From: Butyribacter intestini
GTDB lineage: Bacteria > Bacillota > Clostridia > Lachnospirales > Lachnospiraceae
Reading direction: 5' to 3'
NCBI GenBank assembly: GCA_001414325.1
Contig: LLKB01000005.1
Span: 481,060-545,059, forward strand
DNA: 64,000 nt
Below, piece after piece: positions 8,464 to 53,183 of the stretch. The notes under the pieces were generated by a model. That model saw nothing but the letters and a program-made list of their open reading frames with translations. It was not told where the DNA came from and ran no database searches. Numbering within the stretch: the stretch's first letter is position 1; every line of letters begins with the position of its first letter. Position numbers and translations under genes: made by a program.

Positions 8464-8500
8464 GTAACAGTTCAGCTTTCCATTTATTACATTTTCATAC
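8464..8500. mobile_element. Fragment of the 184-bp MITE-like element (one end)
   Basis: Begins with GTAACAGTTCAGC, the terminal repeat of the complete elements at 48650 and 53000, and continues to match them for about 37 bases (CATTTATTACATT is identical to the element at 53000 read on the minus strand). The rest of the element is absent. It lies directly in the pdxS promoter region. Confidence 0.7.
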
Positions 8501-37725: not shown

Positions 37726-37800
37726 GTAACCTTTCAGCCATAAAAAGATAATCGGCAATACAATGAACTTGTTTATTGTATGCCAAATTCTCTTTTTATT
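37726..37800. mobile_element. Fragment of the 184-bp MITE-like element (hairpin end)
   Basis: Begins GTAACCTTTCAGCC, a degenerate form of the terminal repeat GTAACAGTTCAGCC, then matches the hairpin end of the element at 48650 read on the opposite strand (ATAAAAAGATAAT, GCAATACAATGA). Its hairpin arms have diverged together. The other half of the element is missing. It fills part of the 300-base gap between the YgiQ and HAD genes. Confidence 0.7.
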
Positions 37801-48477: not shown

Positions 48478-48557
48478 GTAACAGTCCAACCTTGCATTTC
48501 TTACATTCATAAACCTGCCGGCGAGCTGTCAGTCGCTGCTTTGCAGCTTTTATTTAT
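48478..48557. mobile_element. Fragment of the 184-bp MITE-like element (left half)
   Basis: GTAACAGTCCAACC followed by about 65 bases almost identical to the left half of the complete element 92 bases further on (CTTGCATTTCTTACATTCAT, CTGTCAGTCGCTGCTTTGCA). Same orientation as that copy. The hairpin half is absent. Confidence 0.85.
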
Positions 48558-48649
48558 GTAAAAAAAGATATAATTATTTTTTTCATTGTATATGGTACTA
48601 AATTTTCCCGCATTTATCAAGTCCGTTATTGAAATAAACAGCATAATGT

Positions 48650-48833
48650 GTAACAGTTCAGCCTTGCATTTCTTACATTCATAAACCTGCCAGCGAGCTG
48701 TCAGTCGCTGCTTTGCAGCTTTTGTTTATTTCATTTCAGAAATGAAAGGCTATTCTACCATAAAAAGGTACTTAACAATACAATGAACAAGCTCATTGTA
48801 TTGCCAATTATCTTTTTATGGCTGAACTGTTAC
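48650..48833. mobile_element. Complete 184-bp MITE-like element, copy 1
   Basis: Ends are GTAACAGTTCAGCC and GGCTGAACTGTTAC, perfect 14-bp inverted repeats. The outside 7-mers are ATAATGT and ATAATAT, like a target duplication with one change. It encodes no protein. The left half has small hairpins (AGCGA..TCGCT, TTTCATTTC-A-GAAATGAAA); the right half folds into a long hairpin (CCATAAAAAG..CTTTTTATGG enclosing CAATACAATGA..TCATTGTATTG). It lies in the 630-base gap between cysS and the 48988 gene. Confidence 0.88.
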
Positions 48834-48889
48834 ATAATATTCATATTATTTACCTTTCCTCCCTTGAAACATCTTGCGATAAACTATAT

Positions 48890-48929
48890 AATGATGTTGG
48901 GGTCAAAATACCTTTTGACCCCAACATCA
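48890..48929. repeat. Perfect 18-bp hairpin upstream of the 185-residue unknown gene
   Basis: ATGATGTTGGGGTCAAAA and TTTTGACCCCAACATCAT are perfect complements with the loop TACC. No T tract follows on either strand, so it is not an ordinary terminator. It ends 58 bases before the start codon of the next gene and may be an operator or a leader structure. Confidence 0.8.
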
Positions 48930-48987
48930 TATAATATATTTAAGTAATTTATGAAAAATCATCTTATAATAATGGAGGTGTTAGTTT

Positions 48988-49545
48988 ATGAGCAATACAC
49001 AAAATTCAAGTTTTTCACTTTTAAACCAGAAAGAGATTGATTCCCTCATAGGTTTCCTCTCAGAGCAGAAAAATTCTTTAGACAGTGATGTATTAAGCCA
49101 GAAAAGCATAGATAAACTTATTAAACTTATTTCAAGTGACAGTGACAGGATTATCACGGATGTATTTGATCCATTTGCACATGTTGACAACTCTGTACTT
49201 GCAACTCTTGGTTTCCGAGAGGATGTTTCACAGTTATGCGAACTTAAGTTTTCTGTCAATGAAACTACAGATTACATCATCCTCACGGCTTACAACACTG
49301 TTACGAATAAGGAGCTTGTCATAACTCCAAATCTTATCAATGCAAATGATACTACTGACTGGGGCTGTTCTATTTCGCCTGTATTTTTCAATCGTATAGC
49401 AAAAGTATTTTCATTTAAATACACACAACAGACTCATGATGCCGTATGTAACTGTTTTGCTAAACACACATACGGTGATGCAAACCATAAGATTCCTGAG
49501 ATTTATCTTCCGGTAAATGAAAAACTTTTAGAGTGCCTTATCTGA
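48988..49545 (+). CDS. Protein of unknown function, 185 residues
   Basis: I do not recognise this protein. It is acidic and soluble, without signal peptide or membrane segment. The N-terminal 65 residues look helical (LLNQKEIDSLIGFLSEQKNSL, SIDKLIKLISSD), and the rest mixes strands with two Cys near DAVCNCFAKH. The motif RIITDVFDPFAHVDNSVLATLGFR might be a conserved core. GGAGG nine bases upstream and a terminator downstream mark it as an expressed single gene; a perfect 18-bp hairpin stands in its upstream region. Confidence 0.7.
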   Translation: MSNTQNSSFSLLNQKEIDSLIGFLSEQKNSLDSDVLSQKSIDKLIKLISSDSDRIITDVFDPFAHVDNSVLATLGFREDVSQLCELKFSVNETTDYIILTAYNTVTNKELVITPNLINANDTTDWGCSISPVFFNRIAKVFSFKYTQQTHDAVCNCFAKHTYGDANHKIPEIYLPVNEKLLECLI

Positions 49546-49648
49546 TGATAAGTTGACGGTATTATGAGTCGTCAGCATAGCTGATTGCAAATATCTGCCT
49601 GATTTATCATGCATCAAAGCAAGCACAAAAAACTCAGGCGTATATTCT

Positions 49649-49696
49649 AAAATAACTTAGCATAAATATTATTTACTCTTTATGCTAAGTTATTTT
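49649..49696. terminator. Bidirectional terminator
   Basis: AAAATAACTTAGCATAAA (49649-49666) and TTTATGCTAAGTTATTTT (49679-49696) are perfect 18-bp complements followed by TT; it separates two convergent genes. Confidence 0.9.
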
Positions 49697-49724
49697 TTGT
49701 CTTTATCTATCTTTCGATTTATTT

Positions 49725-52181
49725 CTACTCCCCTTCACTCAACATCCGACTTACTGTTTCATCTTTTTTTCTATAATATGATATGAGCCTGCAAACATAA
49801 GTAATTCCTACGGTCAATCCGACAGAAACAATTATTTGCCTGCTTGTCAATGTCCCATTTGTAAATGCATATTTTCCTAAAAACATATTTAAAGCACACG
49901 CAAACAAAATGCTACTGCTATATCTAAAAAATACTTTTCTCTGTAACTGAGCATAACTCATTCCAAAACTTCGCAATACCCCATATTCATATCTGTGTTT
50001 CTCCCAATCTATATAAATACTCAAATTAATATAGATACATATGATAATTGCACAAAACAGCAATATTGTATTACTTAGAACTGATGTATAAGCTGCCATC
50101 AGCTTATCATCACTTTCTCTGTTTTCTGAAGAATCTAACAAGCCTCCCTGTATTGATGCCATTGTAAACATAACATTTTTATCCACTTCTTTTTGTATAA
50201 ATAACGGTGCGTCTTTTTTCATTTCTATTGTTATTGTGTTACATCCCAAAACCGTTCTGCTTTTTATAGCTGTTTTCTCATCCATAACTATTTCTATGCC
50301 ATTGTACTCTTCACTACTTCCACTAAGCACAGCACCAACATTAAATTTTTCTGAATAAAACCTTACTTTTTTCTCATCACCTCTTATTCCCCCGAGCCGT
50401 ATCATCCCATTTTCTTTAATTGACGGATTTGCTATCTCTTTATAGTCCGGCAAAATAACTATACAGGATTTTGATTTATTGTTTTCAAAACAGGGATTTT
50501 TAATTTCTTTCTTTTTCACAAAGTCTTTAAATTCTTTTTCTCTTAAAACTGTCACAAGCACATTATCTGATACCGGCTTGTACTTTTCTGTTTTAACCGA
50601 AACCTGTTTCCACAATCTATTATTTTTTTCTTTAGTTTCGGCATCACTTTCATCTAAAGAATACAATCTGTTTTCTTTTATATAATTTTTAAAATACTCA
50701 TCTACATTATTTTTATCCAATAATATTGAACATTGCTTTGTTTCCGCTTCGATGGACATACTTATTTTATCCTTATACTTATCAAATACATTTAAAACAT
50801 CAAACCCAAAATACTCTTCTCCATCTGTCCCTATATAATACCCCCTCAACGGATATGCACTTGCATCACTTTTGCTGCACAAATAATACTCAATATTTTC
50901 TGATTTGCAACTAAAAGTATTCATAAAATAAAATGAAGCAATCGCAAAAAAAATACATACTGTCTGAACAACAATAATACTTATGTCTATTTTTCTAAAT
51001 TTGTATTTTCTGTGTTTTCTAAAATTATTATTAGAAAATAACCTGGAATGCTGCTCTGTTCCCATAAGTATAAAATAACTATATATTGAAATTACTGCAA
51101 ATACTATCATCATTATCAAAACATTATTATTTAATGAGCTTAGATAATATCTGCCATATTCCCCAAAAACATTACTTATATATGTGTTGCCAATAATCAC
51201 TGATAATATATATCCTGTCAGCACTCCAAACCATATAAATATCTGCATTATATAAAAGAAAAGTCTTTTTATTTCTTTTGTTGTCATTCCTAATACCTGA
51301 AATAAATGAAATGTATTTTGATTGCGAATAACAAATGCTCTTATCACTACAGCCTGCTCTAATAATAGCATTATTCCCAGTAAGATAGGATACCAAATAT
51401 TTATATTTATCATATCTTCATTATCACTATATCCATGCCAATGTAGTTTTTCATTAGCACATATAACTTCTTCGGAAATGTTTTGAAATAAGACATTTTC
51501 TATATCACTCTTTGCTTTTTTAAAATCAAGTTTTTTCTGCAAAATAACTAAAGAGTTTTTTACATCTTTATCATTTTTCTGTCCACATATAATTGACGGA
51601 TATACTTTTGTTTCCAACTCTTTGTCATATGATGTTGATATAACTGATGAATAATTTGAAATAACTCCAGTAACCTTATAATTTATAAATCTGCCATCCT
51701 TTTTTAATTTTATATCAAAAGGTAATTGTGTATTTTCTTTTCCAAATAACTTAAGTAAATATTCTTCGACAACAATCTGATCAGATCCTTTTACCCATTT
51801 TCCTTTAATCAATTTAAAAGCAAGTGTCGCACCCATATCTTCTGTCATCGTTCCAATAGTTATTTTTTTGTTTGCATATTCTACATTTCCAACCACTCCA
51901 AAATGTTCATATTTAAAATCACCACATTTTTGCTTTATTTCCTTTTCACTTTCATTATCAATATCCGGTAAAACCATAAGAAATTTTCCATATTTGTTTA
52001 CTGTATTATCCTGCTTTGTCTTTATAATAGTTCCACTAAGCGAACTAACCATAAACATAAATGTAAATCCTACAATAACAGAAACAAAACTACAAAGCAT
52101 CAGCTTTTTTTCATTGCCAATAAGCACCCCTATTAACTTAATTTGTTTTTTTATTTTTTTATTCAACTGTAATCTCACCAT
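49725..52181 (-). CDS. FtsX-like ABC transporter permease
   Basis: 818-residue permease of the MacB/FtsX-like type. There is an N-terminal transmembrane helix (about 25-48), a large extracytoplasmic domain, a block of helices in the middle (about 270-410), a second extracytoplasmic domain (about 430-690), and three C-terminal helices. FtsX-like patterns include GMTTKEIKRLFFYIMQ and YGVLRSFGMSYAQLQRKVFF. It forms an exporter or mechanotransmission complex with the ATPase upstream, overlapping it by 23 bases. The ATG at 52181 is very close to AAAGG; TTG 52166 behind GGTGAG is an alternative start. The substrate is unknown. Confidence 0.85.
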   Translation of the reverse strand: MVRLQLNKKIKKQIKLIGVLIGNEKKLMLCSFVSVIVGFTFMFMVSSLSGTIIKTKQDNTVNKYGKFLMVLPDIDNESEKEIKQKCGDFKYEHFGVVGNVEYANKKITIGTMTEDMGATLAFKLIKGKWVKGSDQIVVEEYLLKLFGKENTQLPFDIKLKKDGRFINYKVTGVISNYSSVISTSYDKELETKVYPSIICGQKNDKDVKNSLVILQKKLDFKKAKSDIENVLFQNISEEVICANEKLHWHGYSDNEDMININIWYPILLGIMLLLEQAVVIRAFVIRNQNTFHLFQVLGMTTKEIKRLFFYIMQIFIWFGVLTGYILSVIIGNTYISNVFGEYGRYYLSSLNNNVLIMMIVFAVISIYSYFILMGTEQHSRLFSNNNFRKHRKYKFRKIDISIIVVQTVCIFFAIASFYFMNTFSCKSENIEYYLCSKSDASAYPLRGYYIGTDGEEYFGFDVLNVFDKYKDKISMSIEAETKQCSILLDKNNVDEYFKNYIKENRLYSLDESDAETKEKNNRLWKQVSVKTEKYKPVSDNVLVTVLREKEFKDFVKKKEIKNPCFENNKSKSCIVILPDYKEIANPSIKENGMIRLGGIRGDEKKVRFYSEKFNVGAVLSGSSEEYNGIEIVMDEKTAIKSRTVLGCNTITIEMKKDAPLFIQKEVDKNVMFTMASIQGGLLDSSENRESDDKLMAAYTSVLSNTILLFCAIIICIYINLSIYIDWEKHRYEYGVLRSFGMSYAQLQRKVFFRYSSSILFACALNMFLGKYAFTNGTLTSRQIIVSVGLTVGITYVCRLISYYRKKDETVSRMLSEGE

Positions 52182-52842
52182 CCTTTATGCGAATTGTCTG
52201 AGTACAATTCTCCATGAGATTTTCTTCATGTGTAACTATTATATAAGTGGTTTTATATTCTTTGTTTAGTTTACTAAATAATTCCGTTATTATCATGGTA
52301 TTTTCAGAATCAAGATTTCCGGTCGGCTCATCTGCAAACACAATCTTTGGTTTTAAAAGCATCGCTCGGGCTATTGCTACACGCTGTTGTTCCCCACCAG
52401 ATAATTGATATGATGTTTTCTTTGTTAATTTATTTATTCCTAATTCCTGTAACAGATACGCATAATATTCCCTGTCATATTTCTTTCCATTAATATAAGC
52501 AGGACACAAAATATTCTCTTCTACACTTATGCGTGGTATTAAATGATATCCCTGAAACACAAAACCAAAATTATTTCCTCTCAGCTTTGCCAATTTACTC
52601 TCTCCCATAGAGCCATATCTTTTCCCACAATAATAAACATTTCCCTGAGACGCCTTATCAATACCGGCAAGAATATTTAGAAGTGTTGTTTTTCCACTAC
52701 CACTCTTTCCATATATCAAATTGACAGATTCATTTTTTATCTCAATACTTACATGCTTCAATACATTTGTTCTAGAATTTCCGTTTTCATATGATTTTGA
52801 AATATCATCACATGACAATATTATTTCATCCTTTTTTATCAT
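52159..52842 (-). CDS. ABC transporter ATPase (LolD/MacB-like)
   Basis: 227-residue ATPase: Walker [15 protein letters not shown]-loop [18 protein letters not shown], signature [16 protein letters not shown], Walker [17 protein letters not shown]-loop IIVTHEENL. It is the partner of the FtsX-like permease downstream. No two-component genes flank the pair, as they often do in peptide-resistance modules. Confidence 0.92.
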
Positions 52843-52999
52843 TATTTCCCACCCGTATTATACTTTATTTTAAAGCTCCGGCTTTTGACCGGAACTAATA
52901 TTAGATTTGCAAATTTTATGCTGTATATTTGTTTCATTCAAACTTTATCATACAAAACATTTTTTGTCAAATAGTTTTGTAATCAAAATATTATTTCAA

Positions 53000-53183
53000 G
53001 TAACAGTTCAGCCCAAAAAAGATAAGTCAATAATACATGAGCTTGCTCAATGTATTATTGACTTGTTTTTTGGGGCTGAATAGCCTTTCATTTATGAAAT
53101 GAAGTAAACACAAGCTGCATAGCAGCGACTGACAGCTTGCTGGCAGGTTTACGAATGTAATAAATGAGAGGCTGAACTGTTAC
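53000..53183. mobile_element. Complete 184-bp MITE-like element, copy 2 (inverted)
   Basis: Same length and same 14-bp terminal repeats (GTAACAGTTCAGCC, GGCTGAACTGTTAC) as the copy at 48650, in opposite orientation. Flanking 7-mers are ATTTCAA and AGTTCAA. The hairpin end here pairs CCCAAAAAA with TTTTTTGGG and AGTCAATAATACAT with ATGTATTATTGACT, a different sequence from copy 1 but again fully paired. It lies in the 376-base gap between the ABC ATPase and chemoreceptor genes. Confidence 0.88.

Follow-up and report, generated by a model that had tools for sequence, protein, structure and literature searches.

The present analysis concerns a 64,000-nucleotide stretch of Butyribacter intestini DNA (contig LLKB01000005.1, positions 481,060 to 545,059; hereafter the window), which contains two complete copies of a 184-bp miniature inverted-repeat transposable element (MITE). 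This element is most likely a non-autonomous member of the ISBst12 group of IS66 elements, moved in trans, because of the statistics of its terminal inverted repeats (TIRs) and target site duplications (TSDs), the IS66 elements with the same ends in related genomes, and an empty site between two genes which we take to be clpX and lon. We give a probability of roughly 0.85 to the full reading, in which a transposase of the ISBst12 group of IS66, encoded by a single-gene element, recognizes the TIR GTAACAGTTCAGCC, mobilizes the MITE in trans and makes 8-bp duplications, with template switching and some selection acting in the MITE hairpin. That these elements form a new family of ISBst12/IS66-type MITEs is well supported. 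What is surprising is that a hairpin bearing arm-templated changes is maintained, and that the element may be related to a mobile “RNA” family.

The MITE family and its target duplication

The original prediction, made from the letters of the window, described two 184-bp copies in inverse orientation with perfect 14-bp TIRs and with flanking 7-mers that agree at six of seven positions. Coordinates, length, TIRs, orientation and, for both copies, the 6/7 agreement of the 7-mers were all confirmed. The copies and their fragments in the window are the following:

48650-48833, + strand: MITE copy A, complete, 184 bp, hairpin type A; an identical copy lies at C5:838632-838815 of the source genome
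48650-48663, + strand: TIR GTAACAGTTCAGCC of copy A
48820-48833, - strand: TIR of copy A
48753-48826: long imperfect hairpin of copy A, arms 48753-48786 and 48793-48826, 82% complementary
48643-48649: left flanking 7-mer ATAATGT of copy A, matching 48834-48840 at 6/7 positions; weak or atypical target repeat
48834-48840: right flanking 7-mer ATAATAT of copy A
53000-53183, - strand: MITE copy B, complete, 184 bp, hairpin type B; an identical copy lies at C5:942988-943171 of the source genome
53000-53013, + strand: TIR of copy B
53170-53183, - strand: TIR of copy B
53017-53071: long hairpin of copy B, arms 53017-53038 and 53050-53071, 91% complementary
48478-48557, + strand: truncated MITE copy, left 80 bp only, 95% identical
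37726-37799, - strand: truncated MITE copy, TIR and hairpin half, 84% identical
8464-8493, + strand: left-end remnant of the MITE, 30 bp, 90% identical

Copies A and B are 84% identical to each other. On the + strand copy A begins with its branched half, its hairpin-first strand being the - strand, while the hairpin-first strand of copy B is the + strand. The remnant at 8464-8493 is situated a short distance upstream of the start codon of an open reading frame (ORF) which is presumably pdxS-like.

The claim that these copies represent a MITE family was borne out by a search of the source genome (G000, 3.61 Mb), where dozens of further copies were found. The exact 14-base end occurs 183 times, and allowing one mismatch raises this to 256 occurrences versus one for the reversed control. 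The best 40 of 221 candidates retrieved with copy A are 90-100% identical to it, and copy B used as query retrieved the second hairpin type, with at least 24 places absent from the copy-A match list. In stretches of the genome around these matches we sampled 80 two-ended elements with at most two mismatches in both ends; pairings in which one end was worse were excluded, as was a single alternative long pairing. They comprise copies of 180-187 bp, copies of about 255 bp carrying an inserted extra block, and short forms of 86-119 bp, including 88-bp forms made up almost only of TIR and hairpin; many exact TIRs in the genome have no partner end. The elements thus have the features by which MITEs are recognized: they are short, bounded by TIRs, numerous and without a transposase. 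Among 116 genomes, the TIR was detected in 22, counting G000 itself; all 22 belong to the same family, and the 44 genomes from other families gave no match. A TIR scan of viral contigs gave at least 120 stretches, with one match each among the 80 listed. A second MITE family, 164 bp long with an identical TIR and a different fold, was observed in another genome of the genus (G008; L305 and L306).

The flanks of the 80 elements indicate a target duplication of 8 bp. Left and right flanks agree best over 8 bases, with an identity of 0.84; for every other length between 4 and 12 it is only 0.31-0.41. Perfect 8-bp repeats flank 37 elements, compared to 0.4 expected when right flanks are re-dealt, and 62 of the 80 match at seven or eight of the eight positions (0.9 expected). 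The 7-bp duplication originally proposed is therefore rejected, since flank identity peaks at length 8; the two window copies are exceptions in their own family.

An orthologous locus without the element was also sought, and was found in the clpX-lon region of G013, which by a gene of this locus is the closest to G000 among 27 other genomes of the genus. The sequences to the two sides of the site align between the genomes at 79% and 87%, and the MITE is missing from G013, although at 79% flank identity the single-copy target word is unreadable. Further sites of this kind exist, as in the same syntenic block presence of elements differs both ways between the two genomes (compared by eye). One element of G000 coincides with a TIR remnant in G013, so some of the compared sites are not clean.

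The copies could in principle be ordinary dispersed intergenic repeats or terminator hairpins copied by recombination and not mobile at all. Many of them do form hairpins and are located next to open frames or in the gaps separating them, and chimeras between hairpin types (e.g. C6:44577 and C1:983058) testify to recombination between copies. The 8-bp duplications lie flush with the TIRs and elements are absent from orthologous sites, neither of which fits such an origin, and we give it almost no credence. In the main it is refuted by the duplication statistics. Three one-ended remnants of 25-30 bp on contig C1 of G000 (L083, L086 and L087) are still flanked by target-word repeats when read by eye, as if a deletion ran from the interior of the element to the far target copy.

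The transposase in the source genome and in relatives

The original prediction found no transposase in the element and concluded that the enzyme must be supplied from elsewhere, which our searches support. G000 has three PF03050 loci, of which only one, a classical IS66 at C1:62647-63507, is intact. Neither among these loci nor by protein search did we find a transposase with MITE ends in G000, and relatives of the 485-amino-acid transposase described below were absent from it at E 1e-10. The resident classical IS66 might nevertheless be thought to move the MITE, as its gene is at hand, one of its ends also begins with GTAA, and IS66 elements make 8-bp duplications. That end reads GTAAGCGC (also given as GTAAGCGCAAAAAACTCAGG), unlike the MITE end, and no TIR with up to three mismatches was found flanking the gene in a 6-kb stretch. 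On these grounds (one end was read) it was rejected as the source of the MITE ends. The exact 14-bp MITE end is instead found on single-gene elements of relatives, and it is very unlikely that the classical IS66, or another transposase than that of these elements, moves the MITE.

The suggested search for a transposase whose gene is bounded by the same terminal repeat did succeed in relatives. In G008 a single PF03050 gene is enclosed by two MITE ends, one of them with a single mismatch, in an element of 1,835 bp (L127). The gene product (P0001) is 485 amino acids long, matches PF03050 at 2e-20 and scores 147.8 bits against NCBIfam NF033517, below the cut-off of 180. A protein search with this transposase found relatives in 12 of 116 genomes. 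Among the PF03050 loci of the TIR-bearing relatives, one more (L133) has an end similar to the MITE end. A scan of contigs for the transposase gave 20 loci, in records which include a Blautia metagenome-assembled genome and Sporofaciens musculi, and at 12 of them both ends were within two mismatches at a distance of 1.8-1.9 kb. Perfect 8-bp duplications surround eight of the 11 autonomous elements with readable flanks, and the other three have none. Two loci with the odd end CCG (L102 and L119) contained no transposase-like ORF by eye.

These elements are in accordance with what is described for the ISBst12 group. For ISDge4, an IS66 element of this group, ends GTGACTACTCAGCA/GTAACTGCTCAGCA, one transposase of 449 amino acids and an 8-bp repeat are published (PMC12898284). 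The MITE and its autonomous partner share with ISDge4 the GTAAC-GTTCAG type of end and the 8-bp duplication, and the partner also has the single-ORF PF03050 layout, whereas the MITE differs in having no transposase gene. Common sequence of the MITE and the autonomous element was seen by eye only over about 14-18 bp at the ends, so that simple internal deletion of the transposon seems an unlikely origin for the MITE. With other bacterial MITEs it shares short length, lack of coding capacity, high copy number, TIRs with TSDs and movement in trans. It differs from them in that the outline of its interior fold is similar across species despite sequence divergence, and in the arm-templated hairpin changes of some copies. 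Within the open-licence PMC literature we found no paper with this TIR in a transposon context.

We infer that an ISBst12-like transposase would recognize GTAACAGTTCAGCC, move the MITE in trans and duplicate an 8-bp target. This enzyme may either have reached G000 and subsequently been lost, or have acted from a copy outside our sample.

Several observations weigh against this mechanism. By the test used, 13 of the 80 elements have no duplication, and the window copies themselves fit 7 bp (6/7) better than 8. The G008 element L127 has no target duplication, and among the 15 PF03050 loci listed from the 21 TIR-bearing relatives it alone has the MITE end on both sides. Furthermore, ten genomes contain 10 or more exact TIRs, and six of these (G000, G001, G005, G013, G015 and G030, some of whose assemblies are incomplete) have no transposase match, while one (G056) has fragments only.

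The folded interior and the matching of hairpin arms

The element is laid out as a TIR stem, a long hairpin and then a branched domain. Whole-element folds of copies A and B are 10-12 standard deviations (SD) below 200 shuffles, and the interiors of our own types A and B, of two G015 types, of G001 and of G008 are 3.4-8.7 SD below. Single-sequence folds of five lineages have a similar outline. In the minimum-energy folds of G015, G001 and G008 the branched domain is a stem enclosing two hairpins, which merge into one in our own type and in the second G015 type. The consensus folds, one built from 65 own copies and the other from nine cross-species sequences, lack the long-range stem of this domain, and the resemblance therefore does not go beyond the outline. 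With gaps disregarded, the interiors of different lineages are 61-83% identical at their aligned positions (five sequences compared, that of G015 with an offset of one base). Own type B, G015, G001 and G008 all have the apical loop GCTTGC, which reads GCTTGT in type A, and a GCTGC/GCAGC hairpin is conserved.

Covariation in the hairpin half was a further point raised by the original prediction. In the nine-sequence alignment, five sequences of which come from G000, double changes occur in 15 of the 29 consensus pairs. In total 94.6% of cells pair, as opposed to at most 52% when the alignment is slid, and none of 500 shuffles was as high. However, 14 of the 15 covarying pairs are located in the long hairpin, where template switching can produce the same pattern. 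Pairing of the hairpin is kept between diverging subfamilies, and the interior is a folded cassette. The statement that the arms differ between the two window copies holds, but that each copy stays paired was overstated for copy A, which has four mismatches in 29 pairs.

Dozens of closely related hairpin copies constitute a natural test of how pairing is kept up under sequence change. Of 43 type-A hairpins found 41 were used, two being skipped as belonging to another class or shifted. Their consensus has four mismatched pairs, whose eight bases account for 37 changes, versus 24 on the 50 bases of the matched pairs. In 29 of these 37 the new base is complementary to what the opposite arm has in the consensus, and in 24 the position is paired in the copy concerned. 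With each shared change counted a single time, only 12 and 20 remain on mismatched and matched pairs, respectively, and six of the 12 leave a pair where four are expected by chance; the polarity of the changes also rests on the majority type. These points likewise speak against the proposed role of template switching, and since the changes are common to many copies the general arm statistic is weak. Individual copies are more telling. In C5:1163393 one arm bears a cluster of three substitutions which all match the other arm, and C5:1149793 has a multi-base arm change which matches its own other arm and is found in no other aligned type-B copy. The arm changes of these two copies are the footprint of template-switch (quasipalindrome) correction. 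According to published work, template switching is known in microbes and creates compensatory changes in RNA genes (PMC8794818).

Both causes named by the original prediction, selection on structure and arm-to-arm conversion, are therefore still in play, with arm templating seen in two copies. The body could be a functional structured RNA, or a folded single-stranded DNA, in which selection alone keeps the pairing. The similar fold outline of five lineages, the high proportion of paired cells with its double changes, and the conserved GCTTGC loop and GCTGC/GCAGC hairpin would agree with this, as would the more stable fold of the hairpin-first strand in 64 of 65 aligned own copies and the sub-threshold full-length matches to a known RNA family, discussed below, which are confined to that strand. 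The covarying pairs are, however, concentrated where template switching gives double changes too, five of the nine aligned sequences are from one genome, and the consensus folds lack the long-range stem. The strand asymmetry is largely due to shared ancestry of the copies, G001 and G008 slightly favoring the other strand. The hairpin-first strand is also mostly antisense to the gene direction of the leading strand, so read-through would usually yield the other strand. Gene directions were not annotated ones; they were deduced from frames without stops, 210 bases or longer, within 500 bases on each side of a copy. From these fold models selection alone is conceivable, though we hold it for the less probable explanation. 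We think that a considerable share of the matched change would come from template switching, to which selection on structure may contribute as well. As arm-templated events are visible in single copies, template-switch correction could be separated from selection with strain sampling.

The orientation of the copies is itself biased. In 56 of 74 oriented copies (six of the 80 could not be oriented; contigs C1 and C5-C8) the hairpin-first strand is opposite to the G-rich, leading strand, with p ~1e-5. This could reflect an insertion preference or the loss of copies whose stronger fold is on the lagging-strand template.

Resemblance to Clostridiales-1 RNA

The known RNA family mentioned above is Clostridiales-1 of Rfam (RF01699), a candidate small RNA (sRNA). 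Full-length matches of the MITE interior to it score 30-37 bits (best 37.3), below the gathering score of 48. They were found in four of the five own type-B copies scanned, in one G008 family and in one G015 element, always on the hairpin-first strand. No match was found in type A, in the other own types scanned, in G001, in the main G015 type or in L305 and L306. On the hairpin-first strand RF01699 was hit at three of 10 loci with E<0.001 and at five of 20 with E<0.01. MicroRNA hairpin models also reach E-values of 0.00025-0.005, which makes the likeness suggestive only. The two appear to have in common a long hairpin with a GCTTGC apical loop followed by a stem with an internal loop and a branch, in the same strand order. 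RF01699 differs, besides the low score of the MITE, in an extra 3' stem-loop, in terminal repeats like TGATGTTGGGGTCAAAAG and in a 5-bp duplication. By these models the MITE body weakly resembles RF01699, and kinship between them is possible.

At least a subset of the RF01699 loci read forms the body of a transposable element. The family has matches in 44 of 116 genomes (33 above the cut-off) and in none of 14 controls. A distal end resembling TTTTGACCCCAACATCA was found, in the 75 bases inspected, at 26 of 47 loci (L337-L363 and L390-L409, L361 being from G000). A perfect 5-bp duplication accompanies 20 of these 26 distal inverted ends, compared to 1.2 expected, and flank identity peaks at length 5. 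The remaining 21 loci are without that end, and have different ends or ends that were not read out. Twenty of the 47 loci came first in a single listing, and 11 of these twenty, from one genome, have almost the same score. The ends were first read by eye, with one scoring mixed; the statistic reported here used a fixed end word. It is this combination of distal end and duplication that identifies the candidate sRNA, in that subset, as a transposable-element body. Such bodies make up a good part of the loci read, which affects the counting of “sRNAs” in the annotation of these bacteria. We found no paper linking Clostridiales-1 to a transposon in the open-licence PMC literature.

It is tempting to regard the MITEs and Clostridiales-1 as two branches of one structured-RNA body, acting as RNA and carried between the ends of unrelated transposases, namely the ISBst12-type IS66 with 8-bp duplications and another with 5-bp duplications. 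We consider this improbable; if true, the RNA fold and not the transposase would be the persisting unit.

The window itself contains a minimal end-to-end form of the RF01699-bodied element:

48892-48929: palindrome TGATGTTGGGGTCAAAATACCTTTTGACCCCAACATCA, 38 bp, with the duplication TATAA at 48887-48891 and 48930-48934

Another small repeated palindrome, the hairpin AAAATAACTTAGCATAAATATTA/TACTCTTTATGCTAAGTTATTTT, is situated at 49649-49696 and, compared by eye, recurs just past the transposase gene of the IS66 of the same genome (L039, ~1269-1316).

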